This document shows positions 5,220 to 23,509 of a stretch of DNA of 33,276 nt, in pieces (within the stretch, counting starts at the first letter, position 1; each line of letters starts with the position of its first letter). The DNA comes from Phycisphaerales bacterium UBA2421. GTDB taxonomy: Bacteria; Planctomycetota; Phycisphaerae; Tepidisphaerales; Tepidisphaeraceae. The position numbers were made by a program, and so were the translations under genes. Under the pieces are notes generated by a model. It saw nothing but the letters and a program-made list of their open reading frames with translations, had not been told where the DNA came from and did no database searches. The stretch is taken from the NCBI GenBank assembly GCA_002343075.1, contig DDRH01000025.1, positions 1 to 33,276 on the forward strand, given 5' to 3'.

Positions 5220-5296
5220 TTGAACTGCGACTCCACGGCGGCCCCGTTTCTGAGGAAATCGTACCCGGTGCAGTCGATTTAGCAGCCAGAAAAATC

Positions 5297-7027: not shown

Positions 7028-7061
7028 ATTTACTCCTGATGCTGGGGCGAGGCGCTGTCAG

Positions 7062-7067
7062 ATTATA
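7062..7067 (-). promoter_or_regulatory. Consensus -10 box for the PEP-CTERM gene pair
   Basis: The minus strand reads TATAAT here, an exact sigma-70 -10 hexamer. It predicts a start near 7055 and a leader of about 28 bases before the GTG at 7027. No good -35 lies at 16-18 bases; TTGGCC occurs only 13 bases upstream. Confidence 0.45.
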
Positions 7068-7237
7068 CGACAAAGACGCCGGCCAATGCGAGAGAATATT
7101 TCATAATATCGCGAGCGGGTTTGATCCAGCCGTCGCCACCGCGGCCAGAATTTGCTCATCCCTCGACGGCGCGCGATACTGGTCAGCGCCGCGGAGAGTG
7201 TTGTTTTAGCGGATTTTGAGGTCTGCAAGCTGTGAAA

Positions 7238-7648
7238 ATGAACCAAAATCGCTGGTTAACCGCTGGGTTGTGGCTGAATGCAGTGCTTCTCGGCTGGATC
7301 GGCTTCACGCTCGCGAGTCGTTCGGGTGGAATCACTGCGAATATCCCGGAACTGATGCCGATGGCCATGGCGCAGCCGGCGCAGGGGCCAATCGCGGGTG
7401 GCGCGGGGTTGTTTCTTATGCCGGCGCAGTTTTCTTCAAATACCTGGGGGTGTTATGTCATGGATGTTGATAGCCAGACGCTTTGCGCCTACCAGTTCTT
7501 GCCCGGCGACAAGCAACTGAGGTTGATTGCGGCCCGCAATTTCCGATTTGACAGGCGATTGGGCAATTACAACACGCTTCCCGCCCCGCTGGATGTGAAG
7601 GATCTGGTGGAGAAGGAAGGGCAAACGAACCGGATCGGCGGCGAGTGA
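7238..7648 (+). CDS. Small membrane-anchored hypothetical protein
   Basis: This 136-residue protein has an N-terminal anchor (about residues 7-27, LTAGLWLNAVLLGWIGFTLA) followed by a low-charge linker and a compact soluble part (about 70-130). That part contains CYVMDVDSQTLCAYQFLPG, LRLIAARNFRFDRRLGNYNT and LDVKDLVEKEG. I know similar short anchored proteins from planctomycetes but no function for them. The two Cys residues flanking the VMDVDSQTL segment could pair if the domain lies outside the membrane. The ATG at 7238 sits two codons after a GTG at 7232; either could be used, with GAGG at about 7218 as the only ribosome-site candidate. Confidence 0.7.
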   Translation: MNQNRWLTAGLWLNAVLLGWIGFTLASRSGGITANIPELMPMAMAQPAQGPIAGGAGLFLMPAQFSSNTWGCYVMDVDSQTLCAYQFLPGDKQLRLIAARNFRFDRRLGNYNTLPAPLDVKDLVEKEGQTNRIGGE

Positions 7649-7810
7649 ACGGTTGCTGAATCGAACCAGAGCGATCGCCGAGAGGAAATGGCCCCCTCGC
7701 ATGACCGCGGCGAATGATTGGGGCATTTGATGAGTTGTGCTTGCGGAAATGCATTGCTTTCAGCCGATGTTTCGCGCTAAAATACGAGTAACAACAGGAG
7801 CAGCACCCCT

Positions 7811-8815
7811 ATGATGGCGAAAATGTTCTATACGCTCGACGAAACAAAGTCGGCGCTTGATAAGAGTGAAGAAGAGATCAAGCAATTGGCCCGCGAAGGC
7901 CGTCTGCGCGAGTTCCGCGATGGCCCGCGACTGATGTTTAAGGCTGATCAGGTTGAGTCCTTAAAAGCCGAGATCACTGGCGGGTCGCCGCGCGATCAGG
8001 TCGATCTCTCTGCTGAGACGACCGGCCCGCTGGGCATGATTGACAGCAAGGGCGCGAGTGGGAGCGTCATCAGCCTTGCCGACACCGGTGGCCGAGGGGG
8101 CAGCAGCATCGGCATCGGTCTCGCCCCGAAGGATGACACCGCTCTGGCAGCAGACATTTCGAGCGGCAGCCTTGGAGGAGTGCCTTCTCCTGGAAAGCCG
8201 GGAAGCGGAAGCGGGCTGGCGGGATCAGCGGCGGGACGAAGTGCGATCAACGTCTTTTCACCCGACGAAGCAAGCGCCGACCCAATGGCGCAGACCAATA
8301 TCCAGTCGGGAATCAGCGATCAAATCAACATCGAAGGTGTCGGATCAGGGAGCGGCCTGCTCGACCTCACCCGCGAAAGTGATGATACAAGCCTCGGGGC
8401 CGAACTACTCGACGAAATTTCCCCCGGCGGGTCCAGCGGTAGCCGCAAGGGCATCACTGGCATCGGCGGAACTGGTTTTGGGGCCACCGGAGCCGGTGGG
8501 ACGGCCGTTGGCGGGACAGCGGCAGGAGCCTCGGGAATCGCTAATGCGCCCGTGCGCGGGCGTGGCGCGGTTGGAACCCCAATCTACGTCGAGGCCCGTG
8601 ACCCAAGCTCTGACTTCTTTGGAGGCCTTTGTCTGGGTGCAGCGGCGTTTGTGATATTTGGGTCGTTCGTGCTCGTGTCGGCAGTGCTCGGCAATAAAGC
8701 ACCGGAGGCGCTCGCCGACGCGTTCAACCAGCCGACGGTCTATCTCGCGGGCGCCGGCATTCTGGCAGCGGTCATTTTCGGATTCATCGGATTTATGTTT
8801 GGCAAGCTGCGATAG
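7811..8815 (+). CDS. HTH protein with Gly/Ser-rich linker and two C-terminal membrane helices
   Basis: This 334-residue protein begins with an excisionase/MerR-like helix-turn-helix region (about residues 5-55: MFYTLDETKSALDKSEEEIK, then REGRLREFRDGPRLMFK and DQVESL). About 200 residues of Gly/Ser/Ala-rich linker follow, with short acidic islands such as TRESDDTSLGAELLDEI. The C-terminus has two hydrophobic helices separated by a short loop (about 268-296 and 309-331). The layout suggests a DNA- or protein-binding head tethered to the inner membrane. AGGAG lies 10 bases before the first ATG. The gene is followed by two hairpins and stands alone. Targets are unknown. The HTH assignment rests on similarity of pattern; the head could instead bind protein partners. 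Confidence 0.75.
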   Translation: MMAKMFYTLDETKSALDKSEEEIKQLAREGRLREFRDGPRLMFKADQVESLKAEITGGSPRDQVDLSAETTGPLGMIDSKGASGSVISLADTGGRGGSSIGIGLAPKDDTALAADISSGSLGGVPSPGKPGSGSGLAGSAAGRSAINVFSPDEASADPMAQTNIQSGISDQINIEGVGSGSGLLDLTRESDDTSLGAELLDEISPGGSSGSRKGITGIGGTGFGATGAGGTAVGGTAAGASGIANAPVRGRGAVGTPIYVEARDPSSDFFGGLCLGAAAFVIFGSFVLVSAVLGNKAPEALADAFNQPTVYLAGAGILAAVIFGFIGFMFGKLR

Positions 8816-8915
8816 CCCAAGGGGTTACCGCGCAACGCGCCCACTATTGGGCGCTTACGATCAGGTGGATGAGACGCAGACAGAAGCTCATCAGATTTTG
8901 CGGAGGATGAGCGAC

Positions 8916-8950
8916 GAAGCCCGGGCCACAAGCGCCGGGCTTCTTTATTG
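8916..8950 (+). terminator. Intrinsic terminator of the HTH-membrane protein gene
   Basis: GAAGCCCGG at 8916-8924 pairs with CCGGGCTTC at 8935-8943 across a 10-base loop and is followed by TTTATT. A second perfect hairpin (GCGCCC 8837-8842 with GGGCGC 8849-8854) lies just upstream. The site separates this plus-strand gene from the convergent RnfD-like gene. Confidence 0.7.
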
Positions 8951-8966
8951 GGGCTTCTTCATTGGG

Positions 8967-10202
8967 CTATAAATTGCCCACTCCGCTCGGAGTGGATCGG
9001 GCGAGGCCGATCCGATCCATCAGCGGGGTAAGCAGTCCAGCCAGAATCAGGGCAACGTACGGCCCAAACTCAACGCTCACATACAATTGCAGCGCCGCGC
9101 AGACGACGCCCGCCGTCCCCGCCCAGATGACGCGCCACCGGCGGCAGAGTGGGCGAATGGACGGCGAGGTGGCAAGGAACATGGCAGCGAAAATCAACGG
9201 AGAGGCGAGCAATTCATAGTTCGCGAACGTCACGGCGACGCCCCATGTCGCCGCAGAATCTCGCCACGCAAGCCATCGCCACTGCGGTCCCTGCTCGTTG
9301 AGCAGTATTGGCACAGGCAGCACCAAGAACGCAAGAAACGCTGCGGAGATCATCACCAGCGGTATTCGGTAATCGATCAACCCGCGGTACAGCAGAAACA
9401 GCCCGCCAACTATGACGAACACGGTGCTGGCGGTGCCGATTGGCCGTGGCTCGCCTGCGACCATCAAATCTTCGATCGGAGGCAGGCGGTCGCGAATCAA
9501 GCTTTCGAGCGATAACCAGCCTCGCTCCGGTCTGTCGATGCCGGTGGTGAAGAGCGTGAGTCTGCGGGCGATGGGTTCACGCAAGTAGGCGTCGTAACCT
9601 TCGACGGATTCTTGCGAAAGCCACGGTATCTGCGGATTGATCTGAGAATCAACCGGCACACGGAGCAGATCGCCGCGCACCAGTCGATCGGGTTGCAGCA
9701 CTTGGCGTGGAACAAGGTAGGGCTGAAACATCACCACCAGCAGCAGGTGCGTCAGCAGAACCGGATGAACGCGCGCCGTCCCGCCGAGCAGCCAGCAGAG
9801 AATCGCGAGCACGATCCCCGCCGCTGGGAGAATGGGCCACGGAGATTGAAGGTCCGCGGTTGGCGACGAAGACGAAAACAGGTGGGCTGGCAGGGTCATC
9901 GCCAGCATCAGCGCTGCCACTGCCATACCGAGCACGGAGATGCGGCTGCCGCGCCGGCCAACCCGTTGCCAGACAAGTGCAGCGAGCACCGCTGTGATGA
10001 CTAACGTCGCCGCGCCCGCTGCGGCGCGCCAGCCGAATATCGCCACCCCCGCGGCGAGGGGGAACAACAACGCCACCAGTTGCATCCAGGTAATGCGGTG
10101 GTTTGAAACGCCCGACCATCCGCCGGATGCCACCTGCCACCCGGTTCGGGCATCAGGGCATGATTTTGGCAGTGATTCGTCGGCGGGTGCTGAAGCGTGC
10201 AT
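8967..10202 (-). CDS. RnfD/NqrB-like membrane subunit, divergent
   Basis: This 411-residue multi-helix membrane protein has the overall pattern of RnfD, the flavin-carrying membrane subunit of Rnf/Nqr ion-pumping oxidoreductases. The start resembles RnfD (SNHRITWMQLVALLFPLAAG). The C-terminal third matches best: FLATSPSIRPLCRRW in place of the family's ATDPVT region, then FGPYVALILAGLLTPLMDR, which mirrors the RnfD ending. The covalent-FMN motif (S/D-GAT) normally found in the periplasmic stretch is not present; that region reads VRGDLLRVPVDSQINPQIPW. It lies 46 bases downstream of the RnfC-like gene and is probably cotranscribed with it. RnfA, B, E and G are absent from the window. It may be a repurposed quinone- or electron-handling protein or a decaying one. 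Confidence 0.62.
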   Translation of the reverse strand: MHASAPADESLPKSCPDARTGWQVASGGWSGVSNHRITWMQLVALLFPLAAGVAIFGWRAAAGAATLVITAVLAALVWQRVGRRGSRISVLGMAVAALMLAMTLPAHLFSSSSPTADLQSPWPILPAAGIVLAILCWLLGGTARVHPVLLTHLLLVVMFQPYLVPRQVLQPDRLVRGDLLRVPVDSQINPQIPWLSQESVEGYDAYLREPIARRLTLFTTGIDRPERGWLSLESLIRDRLPPIEDLMVAGEPRPIGTASTVFVIVGGLFLLYRGLIDYRIPLVMISAAFLAFLVLPVPILLNEQGPQWRWLAWRDSAATWGVAVTFANYELLASPLIFAAMFLATSPSIRPLCRRWRVIWAGTAGVVCAALQLYVSVEFGPYVALILAGLLTPLMDRIGLARSTPSGVGNL

Positions 10203-10248
10203 CGATCGAGGTTGAGTCTAACCGGCGTCAGGCGACATCGGCAAATGC

Positions 10249-11280
10249 TCACATCACCCCGCGCCGCGCTCTCCCCGCCGCGGCGCGGGTTGCCTTGACC
10301 AATGGCAACCGCGACGGGCAAACGTAGTCGCATAGCCCGCATTCGATGCACAGTGACGCGCGCGAACGGTCAGCCAGCGATGCGTCACCCATTTGAACGG
10401 CCTCAAGCGCAACCATCGGTAGCACACGAGTTGGGCACACGTCGGCACACCAGTTGCACCGAGTGCAGGGGGCGGGCGTTGTGGGCGCTGTGGCGCGGCA
10501 AATGTGAAGAACCGGGGCGGCTCGGCCTGCGGTGCGGGTCAGGTCGGCTGGCTGATGCAGGATCAGCTCACCAGAAATGGCGCAATCGCCATCTTCAAGA
10601 GTGGGCAGGCGCAGGGCGTGCATCAAATCAGCGAGCATCACCTCCGGGGCGACGGCGGCGAAGGTGACTCGGCCCGTCCGGTGATCGCGGACGCACACCG
10701 GCACCGCGGATGAAACATTGCCAGACAAGAGCCGCGCGATTGTCCACGCAGCGGCGGCGTCGATCATTACCACGCCCGCATCCAGTGGCTGACGACCGGG
10801 CACAAGCTGTCGCGATAAGACCCGTGGCAGCAGCAAAGCCGGATGTAGCTGTGGGTAAGCATGATCCAACTGCACGAGCTTCATGGAGTCATCGCGGCGC
10901 CGTCCGGCGCGCCAGCCAGACGGCAGTGCGGAATCAAAGACTACGATCGATTGTGTGGCCTTCAGCACTTTGGCAACGCATTCGACGCCGAGCTGCACCT
11001 CGCGCGCAAACTGTACTGCCACGTTGGCGTTTAGCCGCGCGACGGAATCGGCGTCCAGCCCAGAACAAACTACGACATCGGCCGGTCGCGCGGCTGCCTG
11101 ATGTAACTGGCCAGAAAGGTCGGGCGAGGTCATCCGATTGATTTCAATTCCCGCCTCGCGAAGGAGTTGAATGAGCAGCGCCACCGTGAGACCCTCGCGC
11201 GACAGTGCGGCTGCGCAGGACGACTCGGGAAGTGATAAATCCGGGTCAACCCCAATTGGAATGAATGCCGCCGTCGCCAT
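10249..11280 (-). CDS. Shortened RnfC-like protein with two 4Fe-4S clusters
   Basis: The last 70 residues hold two CxxCxxCxxxCP motifs (C272, C275, C278, C282 and C311, C314, C317, C321), spaced and surrounded as in RnfC (CTRCNWCADVCPTRVLP, CIECGLCDYVCPSRLPLVK). The middle follows RnfC too: AYPQLHPALLLPRVLSRQLV and PLDAGVVMIDAAAAWTIARL. At 343 residues it is well short of usual RnfC. It lacks the N-terminal barrel-like domain and the GGAGFPT and NGAECEP motifs that form the flavin/NADH site. ATG 11280 (MATAAFIPIG) is preferred over an in-frame TTG at 11316; neither has a strong ribosome site. An electron carrier partnering the downstream RnfD-like protein is inferred. Confidence 0.7.
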   Translation of the reverse strand: MATAAFIPIGVDPDLSLPESSCAAALSREGLTVALLIQLLREAGIEINRMTSPDLSGQLHQAAARPADVVVCSGLDADSVARLNANVAVQFAREVQLGVECVAKVLKATQSIVVFDSALPSGWRAGRRRDDSMKLVQLDHAYPQLHPALLLPRVLSRQLVPGRQPLDAGVVMIDAAAAWTIARLLSGNVSSAVPVCVRDHRTGRVTFAAVAPEVMLADLMHALRLPTLEDGDCAISGELILHQPADLTRTAGRAAPVLHICRATAPTTPAPCTRCNWCADVCPTRVLPMVALEAVQMGDASLADRSRASLCIECGLCDYVCPSRLPLVKATRAAAGRARRGVM

Positions 11281-11403
11281 CTGTATAGGGGTGCCAAGTT
11301 TCGGGCTGCAGGTCAAGCGGCGGTGCGATCGTTGGGCGAATCCTGCCAGCAGTCACAACCGCTCGCCGGATCAAAATGGGGCTGGACGATCATTTTCGGA
11401 TGA

Positions 11404-11988
11404 TCAAGACGAGAGGTCGCCGCCGCCGCTGTTGATTTTTAGAACGCCTCGCTGGCGCTTCACCGCGATGATTCGGTTCTTCAGATTATCAAAAATAGGT
11501 CGCGGATTTGGCAGACTTTGAAGATTGAGCGTGCGAGTTGTTTCGTCGTGTGTATAGATGGTGATCGTCCCAACCCCTAGGATTCGATCGACCACGCTCT
11601 GGTTGAACTGGATGTCTTCAACGTGCCAAAGTTCGAGAGTGTCGATTTTCTTACTGAGCAGGCCGATCTCGCGATCGATGCGGTAGTTGCTGATGCGATA
11701 CTTGATTCGTTTCGTCTCAATGATCGGCACAGCCGCGACGATCGCTCCGATCGCTATGGAAATCGGCCATAGCCACCAGAGTTTGAAATCTTCAAAGTCG
11801 AAAATCCAGATCAGGCTTGGCAGTGCCGCGATGATAAGGCCGAAACTAATCCAGGCAGTCGTATATAGTAACTCCCCGCGGAGCATCGGGGAGCCTTGAA
11901 AGTAGATGCGTTCATCATCCCCGGTCGGGGCTACGTGGTCCGGGTCGAGGGTGGCTTCGAGCGCAGATTGTTCGAGCTTCTTTTCCAT
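11404..11988 (-). CDS. PH-domain (bPH2/YdbS-like) membrane protein
   Basis: This 194-residue protein has two closely spaced hydrophobic helices (about residues 43-62 and 70-90). A bacterial PH-like domain follows, starting at the typical TKRIKYRISNYRIDREIGLL, continuing through LELWHVEDIQFNQSVVDRILGVGTITIYT and ending with LPNPRPIFDNLKN. The family includes YdbS/YdbT proteins, which are small membrane proteins of poorly known role. The start ATG at 11988 lies one base beyond the EVE gene stop (TGACATG), so the two are likely translationally coupled. The family call is firm; the function is not. Confidence 0.85.
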   Translation of the reverse strand: MEKKLEQSALEATLDPDHVAPTGDDERIYFQGSPMLRGELLYTTAWISFGLIIAALPSLIWIFDFEDFKLWWLWPISIAIGAIVAAVPIIETKRIKYRISNYRIDREIGLLSKKIDTLELWHVEDIQFNQSVVDRILGVGTITIYTHDETTRTLNLQSLPNPRPIFDNLKNRIIAVKRQRGVLKINSGGGDLSS

Positions 11989-11989
11989 G

Positions 11990-12418
11990 TCACGCCATCT
12001 TCGCCAAAGTCAGCAGCCGTTTCCACATCTCCGCCGGTACCGGCACGACGCTCAGCCGACTGATACGCAAAAGGTCGAACCCCACAAATGCCGGATCTGC
12101 CTTGATTTGTTGGAGGGTAACCGCAACCTCCAATGGCTGTTTCGCCATGATATCCACCGCCACCAGCTTGGGATTGCCGGCCCTGGGGTCTGGATAAGGG
12201 CCTTTCACAATCTCTGCGATCCCAACACACGCTCGTTCGCTTCCGGTGTGATAAATGAGGGCTAGATCCCTCGGCTTCATTGCACGCAAGTGAATCAGCG
12301 CTGTCGCGTTGGAGATACCTGACCAGCTTGTCACCTTATCGTGTACGAGATCATGCCATGAGTATTCCGTAGGCTCTGTCTTGAGAAGCCAGAAATTGTT
12401 CTCAGTACGCTGAGGCAT
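11990..12418 (-). CDS. EVE-domain protein
   Basis: This 142-residue protein opens with WLLKTEPTEYSWHDL and continues with SWSGISNATALIHLRAMKPRDLALIYHTG, which are characteristic of EVE domains (PUA-like fold; relatives include human THYN1). EVE domains bind modified bases in DNA or RNA. The length matches single-domain members. It is the first gene of a tight minus-strand pair with the PH-domain protein; the upstream zinc peptidase ends 27 bases before this start. The nucleic-acid target in this organism is unknown, and no restriction gene is adjacent to suggest a defence role. Confidence 0.9.
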   Translation of the reverse strand: MPQRTENNFWLLKTEPTEYSWHDLVHDKVTSWSGISNATALIHLRAMKPRDLALIYHTGSERACVGIAEIVKGPYPDPRAGNPKLVAVDIMAKQPLEVAVTLQQIKADPAFVGFDLLRISRLSVVPVPAEMWKRLLTLAKMA

Positions 12419-12445
12419 GCGGATTGGGGGAAAGGATACGTCGGC

Positions 12446-13318
12446 CTACAAGTTTGGAGTGTTAAACGTGTCACCCTGATTTGGATCGCCGGATTGGAAG
12501 CCCTTGCGAAACCATCGAACGCGCTGCTCGCCGGTGCCGTGGGTGAAGCTGTCGGGGACCGCATAGCCCTGAATCTTCTTCTGAATGTTGTCGTCGCCGA
12601 TGGCGCTGGCTGCGTTGAGGGCTTCTTCCAAGTCTCCGGGCTCAAGGATGCTCTTGGTTCTTTGTGCGTGGTGTGCCCACACGCCGGCGTAGTAGTCGGC
12701 CTGCAACTCAAGACGCACAGAAAGGTCGTTGTACTGCGATTCACTGAGTTGCTGCCGCGCCGCGTGCACTTGCCCGCTGACGCCGAGCAGATTCTGAACA
12801 TGGTGCCCGACTTCGTGAGCAATGACATACGCCTGCGCGAAATCGCCCGGTGCCTGGAATCGCTGCCGCAGTTCGCGGTAGAAGCTGAGATCGATATACA
12901 CCGTCTGGTCTTCGGGGCAATAAAAAGGACCCATCTCCGCCGACCCATGCCCGCAGCGCGACCGGACCTGCCCGGTGAACAGCACGAGCTTGGGCGGCTC
13001 ATAGCGTCGGCCTGACTGCGCAAAAAGCTGGCCCCAGACATCTTCGGTGCTCTTCAGCACTGCCGAGACCATGCTTTTGAGCTCTTCCTCTTCCGGGCTG
13101 AATTGCCGCGGGGCCGACTCCCGCTGCGCGCTGGGCGCGCCTCCGCCGGCGGGAAGCTGTTGGATGACCTGCTGCGGATCGCCGCCAAGCAGGGCAATAA
13201 GGATGATGATAATGAGCATCCCGATTCCGCCGCCGCCGACCGCCATCGTTCGCCCTGAAACGGGCACGCCTCTGCGGTCCTCGACGTTGGAGCTTTGTCC
13301 CAGGTTTTTCCAGCGCAT
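12446..13318 (-). CDS. Neutral zinc metallopeptidase (YpfJ family), membrane anchored
   Basis: This 290-residue protein has a short basic head, one membrane helix (about residues 26-46, [19 protein letters not shown]), a disordered Pro/Gly/Ser linker, then a metallopeptidase domain. The zinc site reads HEVGHH (starting at residue 168), with a downstream Glu in [11 protein letters not shown] (about 204). [20 protein letters not shown] and [10 protein letters not shown] are also typical of the YpfJ family. Two cysteines (C122, C134) in the [13 protein letters not shown] segment probably form a disulfide, placing the domain outside the cytoplasm. GAGG lies four bases before the ATG. Substrates are unknown. 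Confidence 0.93.
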
Positions 13319-13487
13319 TGTGTGCCTCGTAATGGCTCAAACGCAGTGATCTTCACCGCTGCCGCCGGAATTGTAGCCCGATCTCTCCGATTCGGAGCAA
13401 CAGAAATCAGATCGCGCCAGCATCAAAGGTCAGAATCGGACACAAGCGGCTCTGGCACGCGACTTCGCGACGGGCCACGGCATCCCC

Positions 13488-13520
13488 AAAAGCAGAACGC
13501 CCCGGCCCAAACCGAGGCGT
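13488..13520 (-). terminator. Terminator of the tRNA-Val transcript
   Basis: On the minus strand ACGCCTCGG (520-512) pairs with CCGGGGCGT (505-497), nine pairs with one wobble, across a six-base loop, followed by TCTGCTTTTG. It begins 15 bases after the 3' end of the tRNA. Confidence 0.6.
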
Positions 13521-13535
13521 GCAACCGTTGAACAG

Positions 13536-13609
13536 TGGGCGTTAAGGGACTTGAACCCCTGACCTCACGGGTGTGATCCGTGCGCTCTAGCCAGCTGAGC
13601 TAAACGCCC
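13536..13609 (-). tRNA. tRNA-Val (anticodon CAC)
   Basis: The 74-base cloverleaf is complete. The acceptor stem is GGGCGTT/AACGCCC, the D stem GCTC/GAGC, and the anticodon stem CACGG/CCGTG around loop ATCACAC, giving anticodon CAC, which reads GTG valine codons. The T stem is AGGGG/CCCTT with loop TTCAAGT. The discriminator base is A, as in valine tRNAs. CCA is not encoded; the sequence after the discriminator is CTGTT. Confidence 0.95.
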
Positions 13610-13624
13610 ATTCTACTGCGATAA

Positions 13625-13652
13625 ACTCTATCCGATCGCGTTGGAACTGCAA
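13625..13652 (-). promoter_or_regulatory. Promoter of tRNA-Val
   Basis: The minus strand has TTGCAG (13652-13647) and TAGAGT (13630-13625) separated by 16 bases. Transcription would begin about 8-10 bases before the tRNA 5' end. The -35 box lies immediately beyond the stop of the MutT gene. Confidence 0.4.
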
Positions 13653-13653
13653 G

Positions 13654-14079
13654 TTAGCTCGCGATTTGAAGGCGAATCCGAATCTCCTCGATCAGCGGGC
13701 CATTGGCGGGGAGAAAATGGAGGGTGAGCAGGTCGGCTGGCGTGCACCAACGGAAATCAGCCACTTCGATCAGCTGCGGTTGCCCGGCAATGTGTCGGCA
13801 GAGCCAAGGGTGAAGCTCGACCTGCCGGTTCCGGTCGGGATAGTGATGATGAAACAGGGGAAGTTGCTCAATAGGTTCGACCGTGATGCCGAGTTCTTCG
13901 CGCAGTTCTCGGACGATGCAGCCTGCTGGCGTCTCGCCCGGTTCACACTTCCCCCCGGGGAACTCCCAAAACCCGCCGTAGTAGTCGTCTGCCCGACGCA
14001 GGCAGGCGAGGACGCGGGTCCGATCATCCGAAACCACGACCCCAACCCCCACGCGGAGCAGCGATGGGCCATTCTGCAT
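13654..14079 (-). CDS. mutT: MutT-type Nudix hydrolase (8-oxo-dGTP diphosphatase-like)
   Basis: This 141-residue protein carries a perfect Nudix box, G-x5-E-x7-REU-x-EE-x-GU, in GKCEPGETPAGCIVRELREE followed by LGI. It is preceded by YYGGFWEFPGG, and the C-terminal RWCTPADLLTLHFLPANGPL is typical of MutT. The family hydrolyses oxidised nucleotides such as 8-oxo-dGTP to keep them out of DNA. ATG 14079 is chosen because GGAGGA lies six bases upstream; the frame stays open to 14169 but that extension lacks family similarity. The leader contains a short hairpin (GCCACA...TGTGGC, about 14139-14155). The gene is divergent from the small RNA unit. Exact substrate preference cannot be read from sequence. 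Confidence 0.88.
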   Translation of the reverse strand: MQNGPSLLRVGVGVVVSDDRTRVLACLRRADDYYGGFWEFPGGKCEPGETPAGCIVRELREELGITVEPIEQLPLFHHHYPDRNRQVELHPWLCRHIAGQPQLIEVADFRWCTPADLLTLHFLPANGPLIEEIRIRLQIAS

Positions 14080-14170
14080 GGTTCCTCCAGATCGGGCCTT
14101 TGTGTGGTAAATGTCACGCCCGATAAAACCCGGTTTCCGCCACATGTTGTGTGGCATGCGATATGGCATA

Positions 14171-14198
14171 ACTATATGCAGAACATGATCTTACGCAA
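14171..14198 (-). promoter_or_regulatory. Promoter of the MutT-type gene
   Basis: The minus strand shows TTGCGT (14198-14193) and TATAGT (14176-14171) with a 16-base spacer. This predicts a start near 14164 and a leader of about 85 bases. It stands back to back with the small RNA promoter, 34 bases away. Confidence 0.5.
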
Positions 14199-14232
14199 CA
14201 AAAAAGATACTTTCGCCAAGCTAAAAGGTCGA

Positions 14233-14261
14233 TTGACTTGGGTAGTAGGCGGAAGTATAGT
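14233..14261 (+). promoter_or_regulatory. Strong sigma-70 type promoter of an orphan small RNA
   Basis: TTGACT at 14233-14238 and TATAGT at 14256-14261 are separated by exactly 17 bases, one mismatch each from consensus. An A-rich tract (CAACAAAAAAGA) lies further upstream as a possible UP element. The predicted start is near 14268. It is the best-matching promoter I found in the window. Confidence 0.7.
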
Positions 14262-14267
14262 CGCCCT

Positions 14268-14368
14268 GAGAACGCAGCGTGAAACTCGCCGCGTAAAACG
14301 ATCTTACGGCTTCTTGCCGTGGCGCACTTCCGGAGGTGGACAGGAGCCACCCCTCCGGAAGTTTTTTT
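14268..14368 (+). ncRNA. Predicted structured small RNA of about 100 nt, family unknown
   Basis: Between the promoter at 14233-14261 and the terminator T-run ending at 14368 there is no credible gene but three consecutive hairpins. The first is 272-279/287-294 (ACGCAGCG with CGCCGCGT, one A-C mismatch; positions relative to 14000). The second is 306-310/316-320 (ACGGC with GCCGT, loop TTCTT). The third is the terminator stem. The RNA does not show the conserved blocks of SRP RNA, RNase P, tmRNA or the TPP riboswitch, nor a PyrR-binding loop. A five-codon frame (GTG AAA CTC GCC GCG TAA) lies inside the first hairpin but is probably meaningless. It could be a trans-acting regulator, or a short leader that ends before pyrK, 200 bases downstream. 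Confidence 0.55.
14326..14368 (+). terminator. Strong intrinsic terminator of the small RNA
   Basis: Arms 14326-14336 and 14352-14362 pair perfectly over 11 bases (ACTTCCGGAGG with CCTCCGGAAGT). Three more pairs (TGG/CCA) follow above a two-base bulge, and the loop is ACAGGAG. Seven T residues follow at 14362-14368. Confidence 0.85.
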
Positions 14369-14567
14369 ATGCGCACGGATCGCACCCACTTGCGACCGCA
14401 CGGCCAGATTTCCCCATCGCGGGGGTCGCCGATGCATTTTAATCCATCACCGATCGACGTGTGATTCAATATTCTACTCGTTTCGCCGTGTCGCCTCGTT
14501 GCACGCAGTTGCAGGATCCTCACTTCACTTCACTTCGATTCTGTGAGCACATCCGTAGAATGCACTA
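14369..14567. other. Intergenic stretch before pyrK with no clear element
   Basis: These 199 bases lie between the small RNA terminator and the pyrK start. They contain a direct CACTT repeat (TCACTTCACTTCACTTCG, about 14519-14536) but no convincing promoter pair, hairpin or reading frame. The pyrK promoter should lie here if the upstream terminator is efficient. Confidence 0.35.
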
Positions 14568-15536
14568 ATGAACCAGCGGCGTGGACAGTTTACCGGGGTG
14601 GTCTGTGCGAATATCCCATTGTGCCGGGAGCATTTTAAGCTGGTGATGGAAGTCCGGGGATTCCCACCAACGAAGGCAGGGCAGTTTGTCCAACTGCTGT
14701 GTCGCTCAACTCGCGATCTTGACTACGTTGAGCGAGAACTCGAGTGGCCCTCGCCTCAGAGGCCGGAGGTTGAAAATGTTGACCTGATTGCGCCTACGGC
14801 CCTGCTTCGGCGACCGTTTTCATTGGCAGGGGCGACAACTGATGGCGAGACAGCGACGATCGAGGTCATTCACCGTGTTGTAGGCGTTGGGACAGACTGG
14901 CTGGTGCAACTTCGCACTGGTGACGAAGTAGGCATTCTTGGACCGCTTGGAAACACGTTCTCACACCCTGTGGAGAACCAGATTGCGATTTTGGTGGGAG
15001 GCGGAGTAGGCATTCCGCCGATGCTTTATCTCGCTAGCGAGCTGGTAGGCAAGAAAGTGATCGCTTTCTGCGGCGCGACCACGCGCGACCTGCTGAGTCT
15101 CACTGTCACCGCGGACGCGCGAACGCCGGGCATTGATTCGATCGAGCCGCTATACAACATTCAGGAGTTCGCCGCGCACGGCATCCCCGCGGTCATCAGC
15201 ACAGATGATGGCAGCTACGGTTTCAGGGGGTTTGTGACCCAGTCGCTCCAGGAATATCTGGATAGATTCCGCATCCGCGGCGAAATGGCGGTGATTTACA
15301 CCTGCGGCCCGGAGGTGATGATGAAGCGGGTCGCCGACCTCGCCAGGGCCCGGCAGATCCCCTGCCAGGTTGCGGTAGAACGCGCCATGGCCTGCGGCAT
15401 GGGCACCTGCCAGAGTTGCTGCATCCGAGTGAAGAAGCCCGACGCCAGCGCTGTCCCGTTGCCGGGGCAGGACTGGTGCTATCGCCTGGCATGTACCGAC
15501 GGGCCGGTGTTCGCAGGGGAAGAGTTGCTTTGGTAA
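14568..15536 (+). CDS. pyrK: Dihydroorotate dehydrogenase B electron transfer subunit
   Basis: PyrK passes electrons from dihydroorotate oxidation in PyrD to NAD+ through FAD and a 2Fe-2S cluster. At 322 residues it is longer than most PyrK (about 260). The extra length is partly an insert at residues 48-78 before the flavin motif RRPFSL (81-86). The nucleotide-binding motif is GGGVGIPPM (144-152), CGPEVMM follows at 246, and the cluster ligands are C276, C281, C284 and C309 in CGMGTCQSCC and YRLACTDGPVF. The ferredoxin-reductase fold and C-terminal cluster make the assignment clear. pyrD starts 26 bases downstream, so the two subunits are made from one message. Confidence 0.92.
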   Translation: MNQRRGQFTGVVCANIPLCREHFKLVMEVRGFPPTKAGQFVQLLCRSTRDLDYVERELEWPSPQRPEVENVDLIAPTALLRRPFSLAGATTDGETATIEVIHRVVGVGTDWLVQLRTGDEVGILGPLGNTFSHPVENQIAILVGGGVGIPPMLYLASELVGKKVIAFCGATTRDLLSLTVTADARTPGIDSIEPLYNIQEFAAHGIPAVISTDDGSYGFRGFVTQSLQEYLDRFRIRGEMAVIYTCGPEVMMKRVADLARARQIPCQVAVERAMACGMGTCQSCCIRVKKPDASAVPLPGQDWCYRLACTDGPVFAGEELLW

Positions 15537-15562
15537 AGTGATGAGTCAAGGTTGAGATTGTC

Positions 15563-16495
15563 GTGATTGATTTATCTGTACATTTGGCCGGATTGAAGCT
15601 CGCGAACCCCACCATGACCTGCTCGGGGACGTGTGGTTATGCGTTCGAGTATGGCGATTTCATGGATTTGTCGCAGCTCGGCGCGTTCGTCACGAAGTCG
15701 GTTACGCGGGAAGAGCGGCCGGGCAACCCGCCGGCGCGGATTGTTGAAACACGCGGGGGAATGTTGAATGCGATTGGGCTGGCGAATGTGGGGCTGAAGC
15801 GGTTCCTTGATGAGAAGGTTCCGCAACTTGAAAAAATGCCGTGTCCGATTGTGGTTAACGTCGCTGGTCATTCGTACGACGACTATGTGGAAACGGTCGC
15901 CGCGATGAACCCAATTGCGTGTGTTGGATCGGTGGAACTCAACGTGTCCTGCCCCAATGTGAAGGACGGGCTTACTTTCGGCACTAACCCCGGTCGTCTA
16001 AAGGAGTTAGTGCATGAGGTAAAGAAGGTCTTGCCGGCCAAGCCATTGATGGTCAAGCTGAGTCCGAACGTGGACGACGTTGCCGTCACTGCGCGGGCGG
16101 CAATTGAAGGCGGGGCCGACGTGCTCACGCTGGTTAACACGTTCACCGCGATGTCGATCGACATCCACAGGCGTCGCCCGCGTTTGGCCAACGTAACCGG
16201 GGGCCTTAGCGGGCCGGCAATTAAGCCGATCGCAATCCACATGGTCAGCCGGGTTTATCGTCAGGTTGCAAAGGCTGCGGGCGTGCCAATCGTGGGTATG
16301 GGCGGCGTGCAAACCTGGCAGGACGCCGCCGAGTTCATACTCGCCGGAGCGTCGGCGGTCGCGATCGGCACGGCATTATTCGTTGACCCAGCCGCTCCGA
16401 ACAAAATCTGTGAAGGTTTGGGCGAGTGGGTGAGCAAACAGGGCGCGGAGAAGCTCAGCGACCTCGTCGGCACCGTGCAAATGCCCGGAGATTAG
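15563..16495 (+). CDS. pyrD: Dihydroorotate dehydrogenase B catalytic subunit
   Basis: This 310-residue TIM-barrel flavoprotein oxidises dihydroorotate to orotate in pyrimidine synthesis. The class 1B pattern is clear: catalytic Cys130 in ELNVSCPNVKDG, LMVKLSPNV, and GGLSGPAIKPIAIHMV. The flavin-phosphate region is VGMGGVQTWQDAAEFILAGA followed by AVAIGTALF. Length is normal for the class. Translation starts at GTG 15563, with AAGG about 10 bases upstream. It follows pyrK, which fits the two-subunit NAD-linked enzyme; the membrane-linked class 2 enzyme is excluded by the motifs. Confidence 0.95.
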   Translation: MIDLSVHLAGLKLANPTMTCSGTCGYAFEYGDFMDLSQLGAFVTKSVTREERPGNPPARIVETRGGMLNAIGLANVGLKRFLDEKVPQLEKMPCPIVVNVAGHSYDDYVETVAAMNPIACVGSVELNVSCPNVKDGLTFGTNPGRLKELVHEVKKVLPAKPLMVKLSPNVDDVAVTARAAIEGGADVLTLVNTFTAMSIDIHRRRPRLANVTGGLSGPAIKPIAIHMVSRVYRQVAKAAGVPIVGMGGVQTWQDAAEFILAGASAVAIGTALFVDPAAPNKICEGLGEWVSKQGAEKLSDLVGTVQMPGD

Positions 16496-16712
16496 CCGGT
16501 AAAATCGCCATCTCTATAGGCTGCTTCGTGGCTTAAGTTAGAATGGACATGAATTCCTGCACGCTTCTCCAACCATGCCAATGAAGTGGTGGCATAAACT
16601 TCATCACATCGCGACGCAGCCCCTGCCCGGAATGCGGGACGACCGTCGAATCGGTGGTCGATTCTCACGCGAACAGACAATAGAATCTTGTCGTAACGGC
16701 AGCTAACAGCCT

Positions 16713-17318
16713 ATGTCGATCGCCATCAGCCAACCTGTGCAACTGCCTCACGAACCATTCGGGCAAACCGGCGTTCGGCAGTATGTCGGTTCATTCTCGG
16801 CGTTGTTTTGCGCTGCGATGGTGGCGATGTGCCTGACGCTCTGGTATCGCAGCTTCACTGTGATGGATACAGTCGAGTTTTATCACGCCCAGAGCAGGAG
16901 CCTCGTGCAATCGGCCCAGGGGCGGCTGGCAATTGTCAACATTCAAGGCAGTGCGGGTGACGGTGCGGGCTGGGGGTTCAGCAGTCGGCCGGTGCGGCGC
17001 GGGCGGTTGGATCGGTGGCCCGACTCGATCTGGAAGACCATTGGCGTTCAGGTCATGTCCGACACTTTTTCCGGTCAGCGGGCATGGTTGCTGCGGGTGA
17101 AGTTTCCCTTTGCGGCGGCGGTGCTCGGAGTGGTCCCGGTGGTGCATGTGATCAAGCAGTTGCGGATGGTTCGGCGCCGGGATGAGCCAGACAACTCACC
17201 GCGAGCGGCGTTCTGCCCGCGGTGTGGAAGGGGTGCGGGGGCGGGCGATTCCCGTTGTCGCTGCTGTGGGCGCGAGTTTCGAGGTGGCTCAACCCATTCA
17301 ATCGCGGTCGGGGCGTAG
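16713..17318 (+). CDS. Hypothetical membrane protein with C-terminal zinc ribbon
   Basis: This 201-residue protein has one helix near the N-terminus (about residues 27-46, GSFSALFCAAMVAMCLTLWY). A polar middle of about 85 residues follows, then a second helix (about 131-150, FPFAAAVLGVVPVVHVIKQL). The C-terminal tail carries two zinc-binding pairs, CPRCG and CRCCG, in a ribbon. Proteins of this build, with a Cys-pair tail after a final helix, are frequent in planctomycetes and have no known role. Its 3' end overlaps the convergent proline-rich gene by about 21 bases. No promoter was identified in the 217 bases before it. Confidence 0.65.
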   Translation: MSIAISQPVQLPHEPFGQTGVRQYVGSFSALFCAAMVAMCLTLWYRSFTVMDTVEFYHAQSRSLVQSAQGRLAIVNIQGSAGDGAGWGFSSRPVRRGRLDRWPDSIWKTIGVQVMSDTFSGQRAWLLRVKFPFAAAVLGVVPVVHVIKQLRMVRRRDEPDNSPRAAFCPRCGRGAGAGDSRCRCCGREFRGGSTHSIAVGA

Positions 17319-17945
17319 TGCCAGCGGCCGCTGAAGAATTTCTGTGAGCATGAACTGCTCGCGAAGGGTTTGCGGCCGCAGCCACCCGCGGAGCTGCCCG
17401 GCATCCACCGCCGGCCCCGGTTGTCGCGCCACGGCCGGGGGTGCAGTGACCGGCGTTGGCGATGCTGCGGCTTCTGGAAATGGCCGTTCGGCGAAGACCT
17501 GCGCTGGCTTCTTCGGCTTCTTTTGTTTTTGCTGCTTCTGCCGCTGATTCCCCCGGTTTATCGACACCGGCGACGGGCGATTGGCGGGGATGTTCATCCG
17601 CGGTGGCACAGGGGGTGGCGGGGCGGGCGGATGATACGGTGCCGGCACACGCTGCGGCGGTGGGGGAGTCGGCGGCTGGTAGCCGGTCGACGTGGACACA
17701 CGTGGGACCGGGGCCGCCGGTGGAGACGGGCGCGACGCAATCTCGTCATAATCCGGCGCGTTTGCCCGCGATGCCTCCAGTTCTGCCCGAACCCGCTCGC
17801 GATGCTCCTGCTCTTTCTTCTTCGATGCCATCTTCGCCAACGCGCCCACGCCCCAGATCAGCGCGAAGATCACAAAAAAAATGATCTTCATCAGCGGATC
17901 TTCATCGCGGGCGGCGAGGATGGAAATGACCGGAGACATGCTCAT
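17298..17945 (-). CDS. Proline-rich membrane-anchored hypothetical protein
   Basis: This 215-residue protein starts with a short polar head, then one helix (about residues 18-37, MKIIFFVIFALIWGVGALAK). A charged KKKEQEHRERVRAELEASR segment follows, then about 110 residues dominated by Pro (PTPPPPQRVPAPYHPPAPPP). A Lys/Gln run (RQKQQKQKKPKKP) and a C-terminal LRGWLRPQTLREQFMLTEIL segment, possibly a helix, complete it. The start could be ATG 17945 or the internal ATG 17891 (MKIIFF). It is the last gene of the NfeD-FloA group, 89 bases after floA, so a role near FloA is possible but unproven. Confidence 0.65.
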   Translation of the reverse strand: MSMSPVISILAARDEDPLMKIIFFVIFALIWGVGALAKMASKKKEQEHRERVRAELEASRANAPDYDEIASRPSPPAAPVPRVSTSTGYQPPTPPPPQRVPAPYHPPAPPPPVPPRMNIPANRPSPVSINRGNQRQKQQKQKKPKKPAQVFAERPFPEAAASPTPVTAPPAVARQPGPAVDAGQLRGWLRPQTLREQFMLTEILQRPLALRPDRD

Positions 17946-18034
17946 TAACCTAGAATCAGTCAGACCTTACGCGAGGCGGTCAGACCTGCTCACAAAACGG
18001 AATCGCCGATTGCAGCGAGTATCATTCACAACCG

Positions 18035-19063
18035 TTACCCTTGTCGCTCCGGCGGCTTGGCAATCGCTTCACGCATACTCGTGTCGGCGGCGACGTTCTT
18101 CATCTTATAGTAATCCATGATCCCCATATTGCCCGTCCGGAACGCGTCGGCCATCGCGCGGGGCACTTCTGCCTCGGCCAGCACGACCAGCGCGCGATTC
18201 TTGGCTTGTTCCGCCACGTTTTCCTGCTCCTGCGCCACTGCCATCGCACGGCGTTTTTCTGCCTCAGCCTGAGCACGCTTTTTATCCGACTCGGCCTGGT
18301 CTGCCTGCAGCTTGGCACCGACATTGTCGCCCACATCAATATCGGCGATGTCAATCGACAATATTTCGAACGCGGTGTTGGCGTCCAACCCCTTTACCAG
18401 CACGGCCTTGGAAATATGATCGGGGTTTTCAAGCACATCTTTATAATCAATCGCTGAGCCGATCGCAGTGACGATGCCTTCGCCCACGCGCGCAATGATG
18501 GTTTCTTCGGTCGCACCGCCGACGAGCGACTTGATGTTGGTTCGGACTGTCACCCGCGCCTTGACCTTGAGCTGAATGCCGTCTTTGGCCACGGCGTCGA
18601 TCGTATTGCGACCCATCGCCGCGGAGGGAACGTCGATCACCTTCGGGTTGACGCTGGTTTGCACCGCTTCAAGAATATCGCGGCCAGCGAGGTCAATCGC
18701 CGTGGCAACGCGCCAGTTCAGTTCGATGTTAGCCTTGTTTGCCGCAATCATCGCTGCGATGACGCGCTGCACATCACCGCCGGCCAGGACGTGGCTTTCC
18801 ATCTCAGCCTGGCTGACCTCCAGCCCGGCGCGCATCGCCTGGATTCGGGCATTGACGATGACGTTGGAATTGACGCGCCGCAGGCGCATGCCGATCAGCT
18901 CCAGCATGCTCACACGCGCGCCGCTGACGAGGGCGCGGATGTACAGGCCGAGGAACTGAAAAATCACTCCGAACACGATGAGCAGGAAAATCAGGATGAA
19001 AACGACCAGCCCAACCATCCAGCCGCTCGTGCTCTCTCTCGCTTGTGCGATAATCTCAATCAT
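18035..19063 (-). CDS. floA: Flotillin-like SPFH protein FloA
   Basis: This 342-residue protein matches FloA, a bacterial flotillin that marks membrane microdomains. A hydrophobic hairpin (about residues 15-50) precedes [20 protein letters not shown]. The SPFH core runs through [40 protein letters not shown] and [12 protein letters not shown]. An Ala/Glu-rich coiled coil follows ([20 protein letters not shown]), then the FloA tail with [23 protein letters not shown] 19063 is chosen because GGAAGGA lies seven bases upstream; the TTG at 19078 would overlap that site. It follows the short NfeD gene on the same strand. Confidence 0.95.
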
Positions 19064-19166
19064 GCTTAATCCTTCCAATTCAGTCTTGTCGATCAGAGCC
19101 TTTTCGATCTATATCACTCGCTCTAAATCACTCATTGCATTCGTTTCGTCATCCGCGATCCCACTG

Positions 19167-19637
19167 TTACGCAACCGTCACCATCTCGACGATGATTCTT
19201 CCTGCATCAATCCTGACAACCCGAACCTTGCTTCCTTGCTGGATAATGCCGATTTGCGATCGAACTTCCATCCGTTCGCCTTCAAAATCGACTGTGCCCA
19301 TCGGACGCAGTTCGCTCATCGCGACACCGACTTTGCCGACTGTCACCGCGGGTGGGGTGATTGGGGAATCGGTGGGCTGCAGCATCATCCGCCGGCCAAT
19401 AGGTGTTCTTGGCCACACCTTCAGCGCCGCGGAGATGGCAAAGGGTGACACCATCGCCGCCAGTAGAAGCACACCCAGGCCGAGATACTGATTGATCTTA
19501 AAGCAAATCGCAATCGCGCCGATCATCGCCGCGGTTGCCATTAACCCCAGCAGGCCATGTGAAGGCAGAAACAACTCGGCTACCAGCAGCACCAAGCTGA
19601 TTCCAAACAGAACGAATGCCCAGGTGGATGCTTCCAT
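19167..19637 (-). CDS. Short NfeD-like protein
   Basis: This 156-residue protein has three to four hydrophobic helices in the first 75 residues (ASTWAFVLFGISLVLLVAEL onward). A C-terminal OB-fold domain of NfeD type follows (about 95-156: VGKVGVAMSELRPMGTVDFE, RSQIGIIQQGSKVRVVRI). NfeD proteins are usually encoded beside flotillin genes and are thought to bind or regulate them. Here it lies between the long NfeD gene (gap 41 bases) and floA (gap about 103 bases). It has no protease domain. Confidence 0.88.
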   Translation of the reverse strand: MEASTWAFVLFGISLVLLVAELFLPSHGLLGLMATAAMIGAIAICFKINQYLGLGVLLLAAMVSPFAISAALKVWPRTPIGRRMMLQPTDSPITPPAVTVGKVGVAMSELRPMGTVDFEGERMEVRSQIGIIQQGSKVRVVRIDAGRIIVEMVTVA

Positions 19638-19678
19638 AAATCAATAGTCAATTCATCAACGACGCGCAATCAAGGTTG

Positions 19679-21199
19679 TCAGGCATTCTCAGTCGGCCTG
19701 ACGACCACATGGTTGCCGTGTACCTGCTGCACCACAATCTGTGTGTTGGCCAGCACAAAGCCGCTATCGCTCACCACATTGGTTGTTACGAGTTCATGCG
19801 TTTCATCGTCGGCAAATGCCGCTGTGCCGCCAGGGCGGAGGTCGGTGAGCGCTCTGCCGACTGCGCCGATCTCCGGCCAGACTTCGTCATCGATGTCCTG
19901 AGCGTAGTCGCCGGTCACCGTGCTGCCAACGGTGGTTGTCAGCACGAGCCTTCCAAAGTACGGCATGTCTGGGAGATGCCGATTTAACCAGACTCCAAGC
20001 ACCATGGCGCCCGCGAGGGAACAAGTGACAATCAGCAGGCCCTTCCAGAATGCCTGGTAAGTGCCCGGCAGGGTCGGCATCCAGCCGGGCCGCACTGGCT
20101 CCGCGGGAACAAAGGTCATCGTCAGGCCGGCCACGATCATCAGCAGGCCCGTAATGCCGATGAAGCCAAACCCCGGAATCACAAACAACTCCACCGCAAG
20201 CAAGCCAATTCCCACGATCATGAGGACAATCTCAAACCACGTGGCATATCCGGTCAGGAGTGGCACGCCGACCAGCAGGCTTAGGGCAAACAGCGCAATC
20301 GCCTCCGGCGGCCCGCTTCCGGGCGTGTGGAATGCGGCATAGAGCGATAGGACAAAGATGGTAGTCAAAATCCCCCGAACCGCGGCACTCCCGAGCAATC
20401 CTATGAGATACTCGCCCTTGGAATGATCGAGCGTATCGACGATCCGAAACTGCCGGCTCTGCACAAACTCACTCAATGAAGCATAAACGCCCTTGGAAAG
20501 CCCCAGCGATGTTGCCTGCGAGGCGGTGACGGTGAGTAGCGACTCGCCGTCATCCACCGGATTTGGCACACCTTCCACGGGCTTCCATCCGTTTTCCTTC
20601 ACGAGCGATTCGTATGCCGCCGCGTCAACAAACTTACGCTCGCCATCGGGACCTTGGATGTAGTGTACCACCCGGCCGACGCTTACCATCGCCTGCACGA
20701 GCAGGGGATCGTAGTTGTTTTTCTCCGCCGAGTCGGCAAATTCGGCGAGAATCGGCCCTTCGCTCTTGGCGCGTTCGGTCTTTTCAAGTTGCTGCCCGGG
20801 CACAATCGGGGCACAGTCGCCGAGCATAGAGCCTTGCTGCATGACGATTTCATTGCACGCGATAGCAATCATAGCCCCCGCCGAGATCGCCTTTTCGTCA
20901 ACATAGGCGATGATGTGCAGGTCGTCCTGCTTTTTGAGCATTTGCGAGATTTCAATCGCGGACATAGCCGACCCGCCCCAGGTGTTGATTTGCAGCAAGA
21001 CGGTGCTCGCTTGGCTGCGCGCATCGGCCAGCCGCTTTTCGAGCATCACCTTACTGAAATCGTTGATTTCGCCCGTGAGTTTGATGACTACAACATCTGC
21101 CCCAACCGGCACCGATGGCTGGGAGGTCGATTCGACCTGGCCGCGGGCGGCACCTATGAGGCATAAAGGGAGGAAGACTGCTAGCAGGCGTCCAAGCAT
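19679..21199 (-). CDS. Long NfeD-type protein with ClpP-like serine protease domain
   Basis: This 506-residue protein has a Sec signal (to about residue 20). A ClpP/SppA-like protease domain follows (about 35-245), then four or more membrane helices (about 275-415) and a C-terminal OB-fold (about 425-506). The likely nucleophile is S106 in EKAISAGAMIAIAC, in the place known from archaeal NfeD homologues. A catalytic Lys would be K140 or K145 in the EKTERAKSEG loop. The INTWGGS stretch around residues 71-77 forms the oxyanion region. It is the first gene of the NfeD-NfeD-FloA run. The weak ribosome site suggests modest expression. Confidence 0.9.
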   Translation of the reverse strand: MLGRLLAVFLPLCLIGAARGQVESTSQPSVPVGADVVVIKLTGEINDFSKVMLEKRLADARSQASTVLLQINTWGGSAMSAIEISQMLKKQDDLHIIAYVDEKAISAGAMIAIACNEIVMQQGSMLGDCAPIVPGQQLEKTERAKSEGPILAEFADSAEKNNYDPLLVQAMVSVGRVVHYIQGPDGERKFVDAAAYESLVKENGWKPVEGVPNPVDDGESLLTVTASQATSLGLSKGVYASLSEFVQSRQFRIVDTLDHSKGEYLIGLLGSAAVRGILTTIFVLSLYAAFHTPGSGPPEAIALFALSLLVGVPLLTGYATWFEIVLMIVGIGLLAVELFVIPGFGFIGITGLLMIVAGLTMTFVPAEPVRPGWMPTLPGTYQAFWKGLLIVTCSLAGAMVLGVWLNRHLPDMPYFGRLVLTTTVGSTVTGDYAQDIDDEVWPEIGAVGRALTDLRPGGTAAFADDETHELVTTNVVSDSGFVLANTQIVVQQVHGNHVVVRPTENA

Positions 21200-21234
21200 A
21201 GTAACGATTGTATTCGTAAGCTGTTGGAAAGTAT

Positions 21235-21248
21235 CGCGTTATAACGCG
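21235..21248. promoter_or_regulatory. 14-bp perfect palindrome upstream of the long NfeD gene
   Basis: CGCGTTATAACGCG reads the same on both strands. It overlaps the last codons of the glycosyltransferase gene and lies 36-49 bases before the NfeD start. A TACAAT hexamer on the minus strand lies between it and the start. It is a candidate operator for the NfeD-FloA cluster. Confidence 0.3.
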
Positions 21249-22453: not shown

Positions 22454-22614
22454 ACAATCTCCAGACAGTCTCGAAGCTCGATCTTGTAGCCGGAGATGGC
22501 CAATGATGCACGCGGGGGAGTCATTTGCCACAGAAATGAAGAGTGGAGACGCGAACGCCCTCCCAGGCCGATCCGATGTTGCTTCGCGGGGGTTCGTTCG
22601 GAGGAAGTACTGCG

Positions 22615-23427: not shown

Positions 23428-23481
23428 GTGTCATTTGCACGACCGGGGCGATAAGATACCGGTCCGCCGACGGGCGGGCGA

Positions 23482-23509
23482 AGCCTAAACCAGCGAAATT
23501 GAATGTCAA
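23482..23509 (-). promoter_or_regulatory. Candidate promoter of trpC
   Basis: The minus strand has a perfect TTGACA (23509-23504) and a poor TAGGCT (23487-23482) 16 bases apart, predicting a leader of about 48 bases. It sits in the 94-base gap between trpC and the divergent CPBP gene. Confidence 0.35.

Follow-up and report, generated by a model that had tools for sequence, protein, structure and literature searches.

The window (by which we mean the whole 33,276-nucleotide stretch of Phycisphaerales bacterium UBA2421 DNA that was analysed) probably carries the gene for a non-coding small RNA of about 100 nt. Judging from sequence, this RNA most likely acts in trans without Hfq, and where pyrK is adjacent, rare read-through would reach pyrKD. 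Comparison with related genomes supports the conservation of the RNA, its promoter, its terminator and the covariation of that terminator, its mostly single-copy occurrence, and its presence at sites where pyrK is not adjacent. We regard the RNA as belonging to a new family within a known kind. The evidence for the gene is good, that for its function is not.

The locus is located between a MutT-type gene and pyrK (Table 1). This is where the sequence-only reading had placed it, and Pfam agrees: a NUDIX protein is encoded on the minus strand, and PyrK and then PyrD follow on the plus strand. The protein taken as PyrK is the one with the DHODB Fe-S domain. The near-consensus promoter that had been proposed can be read directly from the letters, and the pattern TTGACW-N16-18-TATANT occurs a single time in the 33-kb window compared to none in 100 shuffled sequences. 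In a looser scan of positions 5000-24000, there were 11 promoter-like sites versus 6.0 (sd 2.6) in shuffles, and the promoter of the small RNA had the top score (10/12). The window also has a minus-strand site of 9/12 at 14283-14254, and a back-to-back promoter for the MutT gene had been suggested. That promoter is not conserved: among 36 loci with a divergent mutT, the best minus-strand scores are 6 to 9, reaching 9 in seven and 10 in none. Farther along the minus strand there is a tRNA-Val(CAC) at 13535-13609, with a terminator-like hairpin after it (13520-13497).

Table 1. Features of the small RNA locus and its neighbours, in window positions
Feature	Position	Strand	Basis or remark
NUDIX (MutT-type) gene, divergent	13654..14169	-	Pfam PF00293; start codon uncertain
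Sigma-70-type promoter, TTGACT-N17-TATAGT	14233..14261	+	Sequence, and counterparts in class loci; -35 TTGACT 14233-14238, spacer 17, -10 TATAGT 14256-14261
Predicted small RNA, ~101 nt	14268..14368	+	Start inferred ~7 nt past the -10 box; 3' end is the T run
5' hairpin, predicted in the window sequence	14272..14294	+	Folding; 5' part differs among genera
Conserved hairpin 1, CGGC-UUCUU-GCCG	14307..14319 (14304-14322 in the window)	+	Stem almost invariant; length and sequence of the loop not fixed
GCCGUGGC, nearly invariant, and short linker up to the terminator	14316..14325	+	Comparison of relatives
Intrinsic terminator	14326..14368	+	11-bp stem ACUUCCGGAGG/CCUCCGGAAGU, inner GGUGG/CCACC, apical loop with GGA, U7
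pyrK-type gene (dihydroorotate dehydrogenase electron-transfer subunit)	14568..15536	+	Pfam PF10418; T run ends 200 nt before it
pyrD	15563..16495	+	Pfam PF01180 (DHO_dh)

The predicted fold of the RNA (14268-14369) has an energy of -41 kcal/mol, which was equalled by none of 200 dinucleotide shuffles (z = -3.28). The GC-rich, 11-bp terminator stem and run of seven T's that had been described approximately 100 nt after the promoter are seen in the sequence. In the DNA, ACTTCCGGAGG (14326-14336) pairs with CCTCCGGAAGT (14352-14362), and the T's occupy 14362-14368, with the first T taking part in the stem. This terminator was absent from the list produced by a simple scan, probably because that scan limited the loop to 3-8. 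Two further hairpins had also been noted. Both are predicted in the window, but only the second (14304-14322) is conserved in relatives, and the one at 14272-14294 is not.

Among relatives, the predicted RNA has a median length of 107 nt (93 loci). Its 5' part has a median of 47 nt (80 loci), cannot be aligned across genera and folds only modestly better than shuffled sequences (mean z = -0.91). The loop of hairpin 1 varies in length by steps that are not divisible by 3, which argues that the core of the RNA is not coding. A 258-amino-acid frame on the plus strand (13666-14442) crosses the block, but it is antisense to the MutT gene and was rejected. The changes in loop length break any frame in relatives and there is no excess of ORFs (see below), in keeping with the earlier statement that no coding gene fits. 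In several loci (L091, L104, L105, L108, L118, L120 and L132), an extra long hairpin has apparently been inserted into the hairpin 1 loop. These loci keep the flanking CGGC and GCCGUGGC, and several of them are titled Sedimentisphaerales.

The RNA is widespread in one class of Planctomycetota, taken here to be the Phycisphaerae, with matches in about half of the genomes sampled from it. A blastn search of 101 genomes, including the source genome, with a 221-base query gave matches in 25, 20 of which are among the 26 genomes of the window's family. The conserved motif is present in 24 of the 25 matched genomes; the match L023, in which the motif is absent, is unrelated and was discarded as a copy. 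In the 19 other genomes of the family, DNA identity is 82 to 100% across roughly 52 to 91 bases. The main matches to PyrK in the family have 53 to 68% protein identity, leaving out the weakest, fragmentary ones. A model (R1) built from an alignment (A1) of 23 sequences detected the RNA in 141 of 298 genomes of the class, 23 of which had supplied the model. A second model (R2), built from an alignment (A3) of 100 sequences (96 distinct), detected it in 156 of the 298, with a single match in all but five. In the source genome, the next R2 matches have E-values of 0.03 or weaker, and the first of these is the same place on the opposite strand. R2 found no RNA in 142 of the 298 genomes, including 6 of the 26 in the family, indicating either that the class can do without the RNA or that diverged forms were missed. 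One locus (L246, in G078) escaped the large, strictly filtered R2 search but scores 34.6 bits when searched on its own.

Outside the class, we found no convincing copies in the genomes sampled. R1 had matches in 23 genomes of a 391-genome sample of the phylum, five of them weak and outside the class (E 5e-5 to 9e-4; 22.7 to 26.3 bits). These five are not counted, because their scores fell to 7.6 to 20.7 bits with R2. In a 294-genome sample of the phylum, all 22 R2 matches are within the class; this sample differs in part from that used for R1, and two of the five genomes with weak matches had been dropped from it by completeness. A strict DNA pattern run over the GTDB collection (84,980 species) gave 49 loci, in records titled Phycisphaerae, Phycisphaerales, Sedimentisphaerales, Tepidisphaeraceae, Humisphaera, Planctomycetota and a few other labels. 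Two loci, L111 and L103, are in records titled Candidatus Kuenenia stuttgartiensis and Blastopirellula marina, respectively. These titles are probably wrong, since the matching contigs (G164:C18 and G267:C84) are placed in the window's class. Viral contigs yielded 38 stretches with an exact 16-mer, none of which scores as the RNA (best E 0.05), and we take these to be chance matches.

For comparisons between loci, we oriented 118 copies (20 from blastn and 98 from the model), 114 of them in the class. The four weak ones outside it (L253-L256) are excluded from all counts of 114. Two doubtful loci without the GCCGUGGC core (L247 and L250; 17.1 and 25.0 bits with R2) are included in the 114 for counts of promoters and neighbours and were dropped from the analyses of predicted length, loop GGA, leader and antiterminator.

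The promoter, the core and the terminator are all conserved. A promoter scoring at least 9/12 precedes the RNA in 99 of the 114 class loci versus 3 of 113 control stretches of equal length taken downstream, and at least 10/12 in 93 versus none (0/113). A median of 67 nt separates the -10 box from GTGGCG. When each of 18 families is given one vote (six of the families contain a single sequence), at least 90% of the votes agree on CGGC, on GCCGUGGC, on the T run and on parts of the terminator stem. Across the 100 aligned sequences, 97.9% of cells pair and 11 of the 12 modelled pairs of the terminator have two-sided changes, counts that are inflated by kinship and that lean towards the modelled structure because A3 was aligned by a model bearing that structure. 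Covariation was 0.379, compared to 0.158 after shuffling (none of 500 shuffles reached 0.379) and at most 0.077 in a slid control, which retains the kinship and not the fit. In contrast to the terminator, hairpin 1 has two-sided changes in none of its five pairs in A3, because its stem hardly varies, and its pairing rests on folding. The picture given by the sequence-only reading is thus borne out in relatives for the promoter, the terminator pairs and the sequence of hairpin 1, and is not borne out for covariation in hairpin 1 or conservation of the 5' hairpin.

The genes around the RNA are less constant than the RNA itself. pyrK is downstream and co-directional in 78 of the 114 class loci, which come from 12 of the 18 family groups. 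In 36 class loci a divergent mutT lies upstream, and 11 of these 36 are without pyrK. By tblastn with the window's proteins, neither gene is beside the RNA in 25 of the 114. The downstream gene is convergent in six loci from families f1, f4, f12, f15 and f18, and encodes PHO4 (L012), an O-methyltransferase (L224), CstA (L208, L246, L248) or a zinc-binding dehydrogenase (L185); these are the cases verified with Pfam and not the total over the 36 class loci without pyrK. The convergent cstA of L208, L246 and L248 is a neighbourhood shared between f4 and f15. Other co-directional neighbours encode a class II tRNA synthetase (D, K, N type) in f6, a pantoate ligase in f14, a HAD hydrolase in f10 and an ACP phosphodiesterase (all by Pfam), and a DegT-type aminotransferase in f12 (by eye). 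In one genome (G018), the RNA is beside mutT, and pyrK is on a separate contig without an R2 match. Another genome, a single contig (G012), has the RNA and a best PyrK match that is weak (E 6e-5, 30% identity). A third (G011) has pyrK and no R2 match, with a kinase-like frame (by eye) upstream of pyrK. Because the RNA is also found before convergent genes and at 25 loci without pyrK and mutT, it is not just a leader of pyrK.

Where pyrK does follow, it is close. The median gap between the end of the model match and pyrK is 59 nt, and the gap is shorter than 45 nt in 23 of the 78 loci. A promoter of at least 9/12 is present in only 9 of these 78 gaps, and four are too short to hold one. Since the gap seldom holds another promoter, pyrK probably depends on read-through, and read-through into pyrK is likely in many relatives.

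These short gaps and the probable dependence of pyrK on read-through are what make a cis-acting attenuator the strongest rival to an RNA that acts in trans. The RNA could be the 5' leader of pyrKD, with a terminator that is switched by a pyrimidine signal, a protein or the translation of a leader peptide. Copies elsewhere would then be relics or the leaders of other genes, and the co-directional neighbours other than pyrK could be such genes. At the 78 loci with pyrK downstream, a role in cis fits at least as well as one in trans. However, an attenuator of pyrK should always be upstream of it on the same strand, and this is not what we found, given the convergent genes in five families and the genome (G011) that has pyrK without the RNA. 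Further, the 5' part, the expected seat of an aptamer or antiterminator, is not conserved. Neither an antiterminator nor a leader ORF is enriched over the 80 loci analysed: pairing between the 5' part and the core shows no excess (mean z = -0.06, n = 80; z < -2 in 5), and ORFs that begin in the 5' part and continue into the core are present in 29 of 80 versus 35.9 expected. An SD-ATG is present in 4 of the 80. A switch driven by a protein or ligand and not involving such pairing would be compatible with these results. We favor a trans-acting sRNA because neither an antiterminator nor a leader peptide gave a signal and because the RNA does not need pyrK, and we consider attenuation of pyrKD unlikely.

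Two other explanations appear much less probable. One is that the unit is only a strong promoter and a terminator and that the RNA itself has no function, being transcriptional noise, an insulator or a DNA-level site. Covariation in the terminator alone is expected of any conserved terminator, and the search for a simple antisense target gave none. Nonetheless, the CGGC-loop-GCCGUGGC module is outside the terminator and is among the most highly kept sequences across the 18 families, and the promoter, core and terminator travel together at fairly steady spacing, leaving a functionless unit very improbable. The other explanation, which we rate as improbable to only a slightly lesser degree, is that the terminator's apical loop presents its GGA to the translational regulator CsrA and that the RNA titrates CsrA as CsrB and RsmY do. 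CsrA is encoded in 57 of 61 class genomes (G000-G060), the stem beneath the GGA changes by compensation, and the GGA is predicted to be unpaired in several families (f1 19/20, f4 2/2, f6 2/2, f16 10/10, f18 3/3, f22 9/9, f25 1/1, f26 1/1, f27 1/1). However, the loop GGA is absent in others (f14 0/17, f19 0/15, f3 0/9, f12 0/4, and 0/2 each in f7, f8 and f9) and rare in f10 (1/9) and f15 (1/3). Because it is missing in f3, f12, f14 and f19, a role with CsrA could apply to only part of the group. Known CsrA-titrating RNAs carry many binding sites, whereas this loop usually has one GGA (the count covers the terminator loop, with one GGA in some families and none in others). The CsrA binding consensus is ANGGA, which GUGGA and UCGGA loops do not meet. 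Co-occurrence is also weak: CsrA is lacking in 1 of the 38 genomes that carry the RNA and in 3 of the 23 that do not. CsrA was not found in three sampled genomes of f11 and was found only weakly in one of f13. The apical loop itself (14340-14346 in the window, and its counterparts) is AUCGGAGC in f4 and f18 and contains GUGGA in most of f16 and f22.

Hfq is an unlikely partner of the RNA. A search for Hfq (PF17209) found it in none of 61 class genomes, many of which are drafts in which a gene could be missed in single cases; the same search was positive in 5 of 14 control genomes. An Hfq-dependent mode of action in trans is therefore improbable, no host Hfq having been found in the 61. A simple antisense target was rejected. 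The exact 12-base complement GGAAGTGCGCCA has 50 matches in the 26 genomes of the family, 19 of which are the RNA itself, and the 31 elsewhere are fewer than the 59 found with a reversed control.

The RNA does not match described families. As the sequence-only reading had anticipated, there was no recognised RNA family at the locus: cmscan against Rfam 15 gave no matches up to E 10, and none up to E 1 in 13 diverse related loci. Our literature search, which was weak on subscription papers and did not reach supplements, found no description of the RNA. The suggestion of an orphan sRNA, perhaps a new planctomycete regulatory RNA, is supported by the absence of a match in Rfam together with the conservation of the promoter and stem and the compensation in the terminator.

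The closest systems are the trans-acting bacterial sRNAs. Like these, the RNA has its own sigma-70 promoter, a length of about 100 nt, conserved stem-loops and a terminator with U7, and comes from one intergenic gene in which a highly conserved core is combined with a variable portion. It differs in having no Rfam 15 match and in being found in a class where Hfq was not detected in 61 genomes. 6S RNA (RF00013) is likewise a widely conserved small RNA and is usually not tied to one neighbouring gene. However, the 6S model has 187 positions, RF00013 has no match at the locus, and 6S sites are separate from those of the window RNA, so 6S was rejected as its identity. Elsewhere in the genomes, 6S matches with E at most 0.001 are present in 24 of 61, in 12 of these above the cut-off, and several of the 24 have the window RNA as well; no 6S match was found in the genome from which the window comes. 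The leader attenuators of pyr operons, known in PyrR-type and pyrBI-type forms, also combine a promoter and an intrinsic terminator upstream of a pyrimidine gene, as is the case in the 78 loci with pyrK. The window RNA differs from them in matching no Rfam leader, in showing no signal of an antiterminator or leader ORF, and in occurring without a downstream pyrK. Lastly, the Rhodopirellula-1 motif is a candidate RNA from Planctomycetes and, going by its description in a table, from Proteobacteria as well (Weinberg 2010, PMC2864571). As far as that table description allows comparison, the restriction of all R2 matches in the phylum sample to one class speaks against identity with this motif.

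We postulate the following for the RNA. The housekeeping RNA polymerase would initiate at the TTGACA/TATAGT-type promoter, and the majority of transcripts would stop at the intrinsic terminator, yielding a short RNA in which a 5' part that varies is followed by a GC hairpin whose stem hardly changes, then by GCCGUGGC and finally by the terminator hairpin with its U tail. This RNA most likely acts in trans and independently of Hfq. The hairpin 1/GUGGC module could be the site of contact with a partner, either a protein or mRNAs bound by base pairing. Where pyrK is just downstream, rare read-through probably supplies pyrKD as a by-product. Transcription, action in trans, the partner and read-through are parts of this model that we infer. 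Taken together, we think that the RNA is a new, single-copy, Hfq-independent sRNA that probably acts in trans, and that transcription reaching pyrKD by read-through may also come from its promoter.

A bolder reading, which we offer tentatively and regard as possible rather than probable, is that this is a class-wide, Hfq-free regulatory RNA in which CGGC-loop-GCCGUGGC docks a partner that is new to bacterial sRNAs. In many lineages, read-through from its promoter into pyrKD might then couple the RNA to pyrimidine synthesis, with one unit serving as both a trans-acting RNA and the leader of pyrKD.

Few regulatory RNAs have been described in Planctomycetota. A 2022 review (PMC9029176) counts 8 distinct sRNAs in the PVC group as a whole versus 345 in Proteobacteria. 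An RNA that is mostly single-copy and present in 156 of 298 genomes of a class without detected Hfq (0/61) would provide a defined handle on the use of sRNAs in this group, and the covariance model enables its annotation. At loci where the sRNA precedes pyrKD, a connection between an sRNA and pyrimidine synthesis can be put to a direct test.
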